From positions 1 to 47,176 of the IMG/VR virus record IMGVR_UViG_3300046519_000218: a DNA stretch of 47,176 nt; one strand, 5' to 3'. Position 1 is the first letter of the stretch. Each line of letters starts with the position of its first letter. Positions 7,033-47,130 of this stretch are shown here, piece after piece. The notes beneath the pieces are model-generated. The model was given only the letters and a program-made list of their open reading frames with translations, searched no databases and had not been told where the DNA came from. Source of the DNA: a virus. A program made the translations under genes and the position numbers.

Positions 7033-7224
7033 ATGGATTCAATCGATGCAGATCGCGCCCTGATTGAAGCGAATGGTGGAGCTTCAGCACTGGCGCGAAA
7101 ACTTAAGTACCAAACTCAACGTGTTCAGAACTGGACCGTTCGAGGCATTCCGCCAAAAGAAAAACTTTTACATCCAGAGATATTTCTAAAAAAGAAATCT
7201 CGCTCAAATGCAGTTGCTGCTTAA
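7033..7224 (+). CDS. Cro-like / YdaS-type helix-turn-helix protein
   Basis: 63 residues, first gene of the rightward transcript. Residues 4-45 (ALIEANGGASALARKLKY then VQNWTVRGIPP) match the YdaS/Cro helix-turn-helix pattern with a conserved NW-x-x-RGIP turn. ATG 7033 has GTGGA upstream; an in-frame ATG at 7012 lies inside an operator and is unlikely. Divergent from the repressor across the right operators, so it should act as Cro and shut repressor synthesis. Confidence 0.82.
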   Translation: MDSIDADRALIEANGGASALARKLKYQTQRVQNWTVRGIPPKEKLLHPEIFLKKKSRSNAVAA

Positions 7225-8029: not shown

Positions 8030-8948
8030 TGAATCGCCATTACAGGTCCAGCCTTCTTTGGCAATGGCTATCGGCTTGAATGAAGCAATTTTCTTACAAC
8101 AGTTGCATTACTGGGTTGGTACGTCACGGTTTATTCGTGATGGTCAGAAGTGGGTTTACAACACGTATTCAGACTGGTTATTGCAGTTGAAATATATGTC
8201 TCTGCCAACTTTAAAAAGAACTATTAAATCGCTTAAAGAGAAGAAATTAGTCCGTGTTGAGCGCTTTGATAAATTGCGCTCCAACCAAGTTAATTACTAC
8301 TCAATTGACTATGAAACATTAGCAATTATTGGTGAAAACATTGCTCAAGCTATTGATTCTATTGATCAGATCAAAATGAGCCAATCGATTAGCTCAAATT
8401 GCACCAATGCATTAGCTCAAAATGAGCCAATCCATCAGCTCAAAATGAGCCAATCGATTAGCTCAAATTGCACCAATGCATTAGCTCAAAATGAGCCAAT
8501 CCATCAGCTCAAAATGAGCCAATCTCCATTAGCTCAAAATGAGCCAATGTATACAAGAGAATACCAAGAGACTACTCAAGAGATTACCAATAAAAAGGTA
8601 AAACCTAAATTTACTTTGGAAGATGCTTCTTCAGTTGAATTGCCAGAAGGTGTAGATCGTGAACTTTGGGTTGGTTACATCGAAATGCGATTCAGCATGA
8701 ATAAAAAACCAACTCCAAAAGCTATTGAGCTTGCTATCAAAGATTTGGCTAAGTGGGGATATGAGAAAGCAAACCAATCTCTTAAAAACTCTATCACAAG
8801 TAATTGGGTTGGCTTATTTGAACCAAAGCAGGCTGTACAGACATACACACGCGCTTATTCACAACAAAGCCAGGCTTCAACACGTATGTCTGAAATTCAG
8901 GAGCTAATTGCAAAAGAGGAGGCAGGTTATGAACAGTATGGTTTCTAA
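8010..8948 (+). CDS. O-like replication initiator, carries the origin
   Basis: 312 residues from ATG 8010 with AAAGGAG 6 bp upstream. Residues 15-100 form a winged helix typical of phage replication proteins (AIGLNEAIFLQQLHYW, then SLPTLKRTIKSLKEKKLV). A central segment of two 23-residue repeats plus a partial third follows and is encoded by DNA iterons; this is the variable linker. The C-terminal domain from about residue 195 (PEGVDRELWVGYIEMR) resembles the DnaT/replication C-terminal domain that contacts the helicase loader. Followed, with 20-bp overlap, by a P-like loader. Lambda O has the same plan: initiator with origin inside its gene. Confidence 0.85.
   Translation: MSKLLINESPLQVQPSLAMAIGLNEAIFLQQLHYWVGTSRFIRDGQKWVYNTYSDWLLQLKYMSLPTLKRTIKSLKEKKLVRVERFDKLRSNQVNYYSIDYETLAIIGENIAQAIDSIDQIKMSQSISSNCTNALAQNEPIHQLKMSQSISSNCTNALAQNEPIHQLKMSQSPLAQNEPMYTREYQETTQEITNKKVKPKFTLEDASSVELPEGVDRELWVGYIEMRFSMNKKPTPKAIELAIKDLAKWGYEKANQSLKNSITSNWVGLFEPKQAVQTYTRAYSQQSQASTRMSEIQELIAKEEAGYEQYGF
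8369..8549 (+). repeat. Replication origin candidate: eight tandem iterons
   Basis: Eight copies of an 18-bp element, consensus GCTCAAAATGAGCCAATC, start at 8369, 8392, 8415, 8438, 8461, 8484, 8507 and 8532. The first seven are spaced exactly 23 bp and the last 25 bp. Five are near-perfect with the inverted repeat GCTCA-AAA-TGAGC; copies 2 and 5 read GCTCAAATTGCACCAATG and copy 1 starts GATC. Because 23 is not a multiple of three, three iterons give one 23-residue protein repeat. Iterons within the initiator gene are the lambdoid origin design. Confidence 0.87.
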
Positions 8949-14896: not shown

Positions 14897-14986
14897 GGAA
14901 AGTTGCCCGAATTGGTAAAGGGGATGGCCTGCTAAGCCATTGTTGCTATCAGCGACGCATGAGTTCGAACCTCATACTTTCCGCCA
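14897..14986 (+). tRNA. tRNA-Ser(GCT)
   Basis: 90 nt class II tRNA. Acceptor stem GGAAAGT with ACTTTCC, anticodon loop CTGCTAA giving anticodon GCT, a long variable arm (GTTGCTATCAGCGAC), T-loop GTTCGAA, and an encoded CCA end at 14984-14986. Reads AGC and AGT codons. It lies only 7 bp after the late leader terminator, so it is a phage-carried gene in the late transcript. Confidence 0.93.
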
Positions 14987-45608: not shown

Positions 45609-45728
45609 ATGTGTAAACGTACTAAAGTTGCATCGATCATTACACTGCTGTGCTTAATCTTCTCAGGTTGCACAGCTCACACAATTAATAGTAATGTGAA
45701 TGTCTCTATTTGTGTGAGAGCGCTTTAA
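45609..45728 (+). CDS. Miniature Rz1-like lipoprotein (o-spanin candidate)
   Basis: 39 residues. Signal peptide of about 20 residues (MCKRTKVASIITLLCLIFSG) with lipobox FSGC (lipidated Cys 21); mature part is only 19 residues and Asn/Val-rich. Placement 5 bp after the endolysin matches Rz1 genes, yet Rz1 proteins are usually longer and Pro-rich, and no clear Rz partner is nearby. Its stop overlaps the convergent ribbon-helix-helix gene by 4 bp. Confidence 0.6.
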   Translation: MCKRTKVASIITLLCLIFSGCTAHTINSNVNVSICVRAL

Positions 45729-45916
45729 TTAGAGTTGCCGATCTTAAGTAATAATTGATTCACGGCATCATCATAAGATTTCAAGTTATTTTCATTTTTG
45801 AACTTTTCAACCAGTTCAATACTTTCTTTTGAGAGCCATATATCTTTTCTTATAAAACCCTTCTCTAACATTTCCTGTCTTTGTTTTGCCTTTCTTTCTG
45901 CTGCACTACTTGCCAT
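45725..45916 (-). CDS. Ribbon-helix-helix (Arc/CopG-like) regulator
   Basis: 63 residues. IRKDIWLSKESIELVEKFKNENN then YDDAVNQLLLKIG fits the beta-alpha-alpha ribbon-helix-helix fold. Read leftward from AAGGAAT at about 45928. It faces the small RNA across a 29-bp interval, so its promoter overlaps that of the RNA and it probably regulates both. Possible Arc-like repressor of an antirepressor-type system. Confidence 0.72.
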   Translation of the reverse strand: MASSAAERKAKQRQEMLEKGFIRKDIWLSKESIELVEKFKNENNLKSYDDAVNQLLLKIGNSN

Positions 45917-45938
45917 ATAAAAAATTCCTTGCTATATT
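45910..45938 (+). promoter_or_regulatory. Promoter of the predicted small RNA
   Basis: TTGCCA (45910-45915), exactly 17 bp, TATATT (45933-45938). The expected start, A45945, is the first base of the first hairpin. The -35 overlaps the start of the ribbon-helix-helix gene on the other strand. Confidence 0.68.
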
Positions 45939-45944
45939 CACTTC

Positions 45945-46107
45945 ACCACCGCTCAGGTGGTTGAGAGATTGATACTTAATATCAGTTTCAAAATCTTAAC
46001 CATCGTTTAGATGGTTTAGAAATTAATTCTTAGAGCCCATTTTGGCTTTTGAATTAATCTACCATCGCTTAGATGGCAAAGCCCCACTGCAATTGGGGCT
46101 TTATTTA
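45945..46107 (+). ncRNA. Predicted small RNA with three repeated hairpins
   Basis: About 160 nt with no convincing open reading frame. Hairpins: ACCACC-GCTCA-GGTGGT (45945-45961), AACCATC-GTTTA-GATGGTT (45998-46016), CCATC-GCTTA-GATGG (46062-46076), consensus CCAYC-GYTYA-GRTGG. Between them lie TGATA-CTTAA-TATCA and ATTAATTC/GAATTAAT arms enclosing AGCC/GGCT. It ends with AAAGCCCC/GGGGCTTT (46078-46102) and a T-rich tail. A 17-bp-spaced promoter begins it exactly at hairpin one. A. baumannii is known to express phage-linked small RNAs compared with the P1 C4 antisense RNA; kinship is possible but from memory. Confidence 0.72.
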
Positions 46108-46695: not shown

Positions 46696-46724
46696 ATACT
46701 ATATTGTGACCGCTCACAATGCAA
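46696..46724 (-). promoter_or_regulatory. Leftward promoter with lac-operator-like palindrome in its spacer
   Basis: ATTGTGA-CCGC-TCACAAT (46703-46720), perfect 7-bp arms, lies between TTGCAT (46724-46719) and TAGTAT (46701-46696). On the - strand the centre reads TTGTGAGCGG, like half of lacO, but full symmetry differs. A repressor bound here would block this promoter and might also affect the rightward one. Confidence 0.65.
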
Positions 46725-47053: not shown

Positions 47054-47069
47054 TGGTGCGCCCGGCGGG
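47054..47069. repeat. Right attachment core within the tRNA 3' end
   Basis: Exact copy of the 16 bases at 143-158. Here it is the end of the intact tRNA-Arg gene, so the phage-carried end restores the tRNA after integration. Confidence 0.93.
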
Positions 47070-47130
47070 GATCGAACCCACGACCCCAGGTTTCGGAAAC
47101 CTGTACTCTATCCAACTGAGCTACGAGCGC
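47054..47130 (-). tRNA. tRNA-Arg(CCG), integration target
   Basis: 77 nt on the - strand. Acceptor GCGCTCG with CGGGCGC, anticodon loop TTCCGAA with anticodon CCG, T-loop GTTCGAT, and encoded CCA at 47056-47054. It is complete; the last 16 nt come from the phage side of the junction. Host gene, used as attB. Confidence 0.96.

Follow-up and report, generated by a model that had tools for sequence, protein, structure and literature searches.

What does the small RNA gene at one end of this prophage encode, and what might it do in the host? The window, by which we mean the whole 47,176-nt stretch that was analysed (record IMGVR_UViG_3300046519_000218), is prophage-like, with an integrase gene at 228-1310 and a tRNA-Arg gene at 47054-47130. 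The RNA gene lies at the prophage end, beside the tRNA-Arg gene, as a 165-nt transcription unit on the plus strand, with the lysis genes on one side and the right end of the window on the other; a tRNA-Ser (GCT) gene is also found within the prophage (14897-14986). The first-pass annotation had described three near-identical stem-loops, 54 and 62 bp apart, with a promoter and a terminator of their own, and all of these elements are present. The stem-loops fall at exactly that spacing (45946-45960, 46000-46014 and 46062-46076). The predicted promoter, TTGCCA-N17-TATATT with an extended -10 (45910-45938, plus strand), has the same sequence in close sister arrays, where the predicted intrinsic terminator, AAAGCCCC...GGGGCTTT, a 9-bp stem followed by a T-rich tail (46078-46102, plus strand), is also conserved; neither consensus match is on its own above chance. 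The RNA gene folds at -63.7 kcal/mol, against -31.9 ± 3.9 kcal/mol in shuffles (z = -8.1; 0/200 shuffles as good), and the alternating second-type stems that had been noted between the hairpins are predicted within this same fold.

The -35 element of the RNA-gene promoter overlaps the start codon of a divergent RHH gene (45725-45916, minus strand), which encodes a 63-aa protein, phrog_27670, with a weak match to a transcriptional-regulator PHROG. Relatives of this protein occur also in prophages that have no array, and no anti-CRISPR or Aca families were found among the neighbouring and early small ORFs of the window. Upstream of a minus-strand operon ending in the RHH gene is a palindrome, TTGTGA-CCGC-TCACAA, seen in the window (46702-46722), in L099 and also in the A. 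tianfuensis locus; it is possibly the operator of an accessory (acr-aca-like) operon.

The first lead to the identity of the RNA was a weak Rfam CRISPR-DR4 match to its first hairpin (E = 0.2). The 28 nt over which the annotation had aligned copies one and two correspond to a full type I-F repeat unit (45941-45968 and 45995-46022, plus strand), composed of 5 nt, a 5-bp stem enclosing a GNNNA loop, and an 8-nt handle. Unit 1 reads CTTCA-CCACC-GCTCA-GGTGG-TTGAGAGA, with a predicted Cas6f cut after 45960 and the handle at 45961-45968, and is followed by a self-complementary, spacer-like segment of 26 nt, guide 1 (TTGATACTTAATATCAG...; 45969-45994, plus strand). Unit 2, CTTAA-CCATC-GTTTA-GATGG-TTTAGAAA, has the same handle as host CRISPR repeats and precedes a spacer-like segment of 34 nt, guide 2 (TTAATTCTTAGAGCCCATTT...; 46023-46056, plus strand). 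Unit 3, ATCTA-CCATC-GCTTA-GATGG (46057-46076, plus strand), has no handle, and the terminator stands in its place.

Four further distinct arrays were found in five IMG/VR contigs: L005, L006 (identical to L018) and L069 carry four units each, and L020 carries two. The L069 array has a different promoter and terminator. Contigs with such units are few among the at least 120 that share the upstream lysis-gene anchor. A terminal-unit pattern scan of GTDB contigs gave no match, and an RHH alignment scan of the same collection gave one locus, without an array; a plasmid collection held no array, its one match adjoining cas1f of a plasmid-borne I-F locus. A covariance model of the terminal unit plus terminator (R1) was discarded, its matches in 164/176 genomes being ordinary terminators.

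Across sister phages the stems covary (CCACC/GGTGG, CCATC/GATGG, CCTTC/GAAGG, CTATC/GATAG, CTGTC/GACAG), with double-sided changes in 11 cases against 2.0 in shuffles. The annotation had read compensatory changes within the single locus as evidence for RNA structure, and had named a loss of stem pairing in homologous prophages, or a conserved reading frame through the region, as outcomes that would speak against it. The wider comparison bears out its reading: stem cells are paired in 80/80 cases across phage units, and no open reading frame runs through the RNA-gene region. Positions C6, C10, G11, A15, G16 and G20 are invariant in 16/16 phage units, a set that includes the C6-G20 pair required for Cas6f binding by RacrIF1 (PMC10651486). 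The helix of spacer 1 stays paired through two double changes in three sequences only, which is no more than suggestive of maintenance by compensatory change. Phage spacers measure 26, 28, 29 or 34 nt, versus 32-33 nt in 1523/1531 host spacers, and the guides are predicted to form hairpins of their own, which might hinder pairing.

We then asked which hosts carry repeats of this kind. When the unit was compared by blastn with 176 Acinetobacter species genomes, 10 matched, 8 through host CRISPR repeats and 2 through the terminator only. A divergent Cas6f is encoded in 8/8 genomes whose CRISPR arrays match, and the canonical Cas6f (53 genomes) in 0/8; with the divergent form present in 18/71 Cas6f-positive genomes, the chance of 8/8 is, by our own arithmetic, about 4e-6. 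Repeats of the divergent lineage follow GTT(C/T)(A/G)(C/T)CATCGCATAGATG(G/A)TTTAGAA(A/G), and nearly all canonical loci have repeats with CTGCC-, CGGTG- or TGGCG- stems. Unit 2 is identical to a host repeat at 24/28 positions, where the best among 4.7 million shuffled positions is 22. The one divergent locus that was inspected contains csy1-like, csy2, csy3, csy4 and cas1 genes. Elsewhere in the viral collection, the IMG/VR contig L219 (~8590-8790, minus strand) bears an apparent true I-F CRISPR array (GTTCGCCATCGCATAGATGGTTTAGAAA, 32-nt spacers).

A search with spacer 2 led to the cas locus of host G012, where a CC-flanked site matches it and a crRNA-like gene adjoins that site. This arrangement is that of the published Acinetobacter I-F CreTA modules, which lie in the cas3-csy1 interval and have two degenerate repeats enclosing a spacer that matches, in part, a CC-flanked site close by (PMC10097628). 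The G012 CreA comprises psiR1 (GTTCACTACTGTATAAGTAGTTGAGAAA), a spacer (TTAATTCTTAGAGTCCAATTC...) and a psiR2 whose stem-loop, CCATCGTTTAGATGG, is exactly that of window unit 2; the stem-loop of unit 3 is identical to that of psiR2 in hosts G064 and G178. G064, G020, G160 and G178 have equivalent CreA genes together with sites that match them, and psiR1-like units occur in G013, G086, G104 and G087. A handle TTGAGAA(A/G) (TTGAGAAA) follows the stem in 9 CreA-like genes, compared with 0 of ~970 array repeats from 18 divergent loci, and this CreA-type handle is carried by phage unit 1 (in the window as TTGAGAGA) and, in four-unit arrays, by unit 3. In blastn comparisons of phage arrays with host creA regions, L069 aligned to G160 at 81% over 118 nt (E = 2e-24), and the window aligned to G178 (E = 5e-12) and G012 (E = 8e-10). 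The inter-hairpin segments of the phage begin like CreA spacers. At the sequence level, the array resembles the CreA genes beside csy1 more than it resembles the lineage's CRISPR repeats.

To score guide-target matches, we compared spacers with every CC-flanked site in the 1 kb upstream of csy1 at the divergent loci. Positions 6, 12 and 18 of type I crRNAs are unpaired, and scores were taken over spacer positions 1-20 minus these three. Window spacer 2 scores 16/17, and no shuffle of 500 exceeded 14. Over the full 20 positions it matches the G012 target at 18, with mismatches at 6 and 17 only, while G012's own CreA matches at 16/20. A close guide-2 match occurs in only 1/176 species genomes. 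The best score of window spacer 1 is 13/17 (p about 0.05); for guide 1 we see no convincing target, and a search for a host CreA carrying its sequence gave weak, scattered matches only. The spacers of the four sister arrays (2-4 units) find their matches at the equivalent sites in other species; they score 14-15, and five phage spacers reach 15-16, whereas of 600 real host spacers a single one scored 14 and not one attained 15/17. Within the csy1-upstream regions, the best CC-flanked match was a CreA target site for 8/8 distinct phage spacers, with a summed score of 117 against 92.6 ± 2.6 (maximum 101) in 1000 shuffles that kept the first 5 nt; the eight are partly homologous to one another and so do not amount to eight independent tests. 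Taken singly, the scores of window spacer 1, L005 spacer 2 and L006 spacer 3 lie within the null range. The spacer-2 match ends after ~20 nt, an extent of pairing that would fit repression, not cleavage. No self-target or CreTA-type target above chance was found inside the window.

Because the repeat anatomy covaries, the handle is of CreA type, the array is homologous to creA genes and guide 2 matches a CC-flanked host CreA target, we consider it most likely that the window RNA comes from a prophage gene encoding CreA mimics in a string, which would occupy host Cascade, dilute the immune crRNAs and keep the CreA target repressed. The sequence makes a strong case for the identity as a CreA mimic; the function is inferred. 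Like CreA (PMC10097628), the array has degenerate I-F repeats that fold into the Cas6f stem-loop on both sides of a spacer, and it shows direct sequence homology to CreA-like genes of the cas3-csy1 region. Partial complementarity to a CC-flanked site of that region holds for guide 2 and not for guide 1, and it is host genomes that carry this site, which does not adjoin the RNA gene. Unlike CreA, the phage array is prophage-encoded, strings 2-4 units together, carries guides for the sites of different hosts and has no creT adjoining it. Because the gene lies at a prophage end, not next to creT in a cas3-csy1 region, and because the window holds no creT-like DNA, we speak of a CreA mimic and not of a CreTA module.

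In the mechanism that we propose, host Cas6f (Csy4) would cut after each stem-loop, yielding two crRNA-like products, 54 and 62 nt long and each bearing an 8-nt handle, and the released guides would load host Cascade in competition with immune crRNAs. Pairing over only ~20 nt would leave the CreA target site repressed, not cleaved, so that CRISPR immunity would be weakened and the guard module under CreA control would nonetheless remain off; the sister arrays would direct guides to CreA sites in several host species. According to published reviews, inhibition of the effector by anti-CRISPRs sets off CreTA/CrePA modules (PMC12737573, PMC13131331), and a phage supplying CreA would avoid that trigger. 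A precedent is the pseudo-ToxI of phage PhiTE, a host antitoxin RNA copied as a variable tandem array, in one case through recombination with the host gene (PMC3475682); ToxI binds its toxin protein directly, whereas the window RNA would act via host Cascade on DNA.

CreTA modules are thought to punish the loss or inhibition of CRISPR-Cas, which makes the escape of anti-CRISPR phages a question. If the reading as CreA mimics is right, one prophage RNA could dilute the immune crRNAs and at the same time keep the guard module silent, which would answer that question directly, and it would belong to a class of RNA anti-CRISPRs excluded by design from published searches, in which tandem and divergent repeats were discarded. 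The literature searched, covering only a minority of subscription journals, gave no description of a phage-encoded CreA.

A second RNA occupies the same locus in other phages: L231 (6000-6200), L232 (10450-10650) and vB_AbaS_qsb1 (L233, PV107591; 1280-1550). It is longer and combines a degenerate I-F unit with a spacer of roughly 20 nt, GGGCAGCCTTTTTATACAAC. In 17/18 divergent loci the best CC-flanked match of this spacer lies at the beginning of csy3 (cas7f), always on the same codons, and it reaches up to 16/17, against a mean of 11.9 and a maximum of 15 in 100 shuffles; this match supports the view that the phage RNAs are guides and not decoys only. An RNA of two units occurs in L275, at about 435-520 nt from the lysis-gene anchor on the downstream side; its first unit is a mimic of the canonical Acinetobacter I-F1 repeat, identical at 24/28 positions and with a compensatory change in the stem, and its -35 overlaps a divergent gene start, as in the window; we did not find a target for its short spacer. 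A broader proposal, which we advance tentatively, is that exchangeable guide-RNA genes in temperate Acinetobacter phages would make host Cascade a programmable repressor of the host CRISPR locus: multi-guide CreA mimics would keep a CRISPR-guarding toxin off, as an antidote to the alarm raised by anti-CRISPRs, and csy3 guides would shut Cascade down.

The product under CreA control bears on the first alternative. The CreA target sits between the divergent cas3 and csy1 genes, 630-690 nt upstream of the latter, and the DNA from target to csy1 holds conserved 29-aa and 72-aa frames along with a predicted promoter and a conserved hairpin. Because the host CreA-like modules stand upstream of these frames and csy1 and have no counterpart of the 33-bp creT mini-ORF seen in WCHA45, whose module is characterised, their product may not be a toxin; what is repressed at the CreA target may be a toxin or the csy operon. 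A comparison of the CreT region with plasmids gave no match. The host module could be a cas-autoregulatory guide with no toxin involved, and the phage RNA could program Cascade so that csy1-4 expression is shut down. Known CreR guides autorepress cas genes in this way, and the window RNA shares with them crRNA-like guides, partial complementarity and the proposed turning of Cascade into a repressor, differing in that it is encoded by a phage (review PMC13131331). The position of the target, the missing mini-ORF and the RNA of vB_AbaS_qsb1 and two contigs, which targets the csy3 start itself, all speak for such silencing. We nevertheless regard it as unlikely: the promoter, hairpin and two frames between target and csy1 look like a separate module, and the cas3-csy1 interval is also where the I-F CreTA modules published for the genus are found (PMC10097628).

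Somewhat more doubtful is the idea that the hairpins merely titrate Cas6f and Cas7f, the intervening sequences being structural linkers, as with RacrIF1 (PMC10651486). RacrIF1-3 are likewise prophage-encoded I-F repeat mimics with their own promoter and the required C6-G20 pair, and competition for Cas6f is a probable common feature; the window RNA also has its own terminator, its spacers are of unusual length, and they form hairpins. The spacers, however, are homologous to CreA spacers, and their matches to CreA sites lie far above those of shuffles. The RacrIF1 product has no handle and forms an aberrant Cas6f-Cas7f complex (PMC10651486); the intact 8-nt handles of the phage array, which has guide-like spacers with host targets, should recruit Cas5f/Cas8f, and guides that bear them should assemble Cascade, as RacrIF1 does not. 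The phage array mimics a host CRISPR repeat on a mobile element, as Racr RNAs do, but it is not a solitary unit at 90% identity or above: three units lie within 150 bp, and the best is at 24/28 (86%). Arrays of this type would have been missed by the Racr survey because it dropped repeats with a second repeat within 100 bp or with identity under 90% (PMC10651486).

It is improbable that the array is a non-functional remnant of host creA genes acquired by the prophage. Its homology to host creA is clear and no selection is shown for spacer 1, but the window has no creT-like flanking DNA, the promoter and terminator are kept in close sister arrays, and the five distinct arrays, with 2-4 units each, display covarying stems and unit turnover. 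A mini-CRISPR array directed against competing phages is more improbable still. Such phage mini-arrays exist (PMC11656645), but the repeats here are degenerate and differ from host repeats, the spacers (26 and 34 nt) are not 32 nt long, and no spacer match was found in the phage or plasmid records searched, where matches of spacer length could be missed.

The annotation's proposed kinship with the C4 antisense RNA, acting through the 5-nt loops, has the least in its favour and can be set aside: two 9-10 nt complements do exist in the integrase gene (430-439 and 1028-1036), but no function is apparent for either, at least one such stem-loop complement turns up in about 1% of integrase genes after shuffling, and the complementary bases sit in stem-loops conserved as CRISPR-repeat mimics. 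An Rfam scan of the window returned no family at gathering score except two tRNAs, and the published A. baumannii C4-like sRNAs have a different architecture, with three stems and RNase P-type processing (PMC5320573). The present evidence does not point to the 5-nt loops as the active part: GNNNA loops are a feature of host I-F repeats too, and the candidate guide is the inter-hairpin segment that matches host cas-locus DNA. What stands of the original description is a small phage RNA that has a promoter and a terminator of its own and whose structure is selected.

Two further loci with host creA-like genes were encountered. In the viral contig L389 (~7096-7160), the creA-like gene is broken inside psiR2 by an apparent insertion of mobile or phage DNA. 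In L168 (1935-2497; host G178), a Doc/Fic toxin gene and a probable antitoxin gene lie between cas3 and the CreA-like gene.
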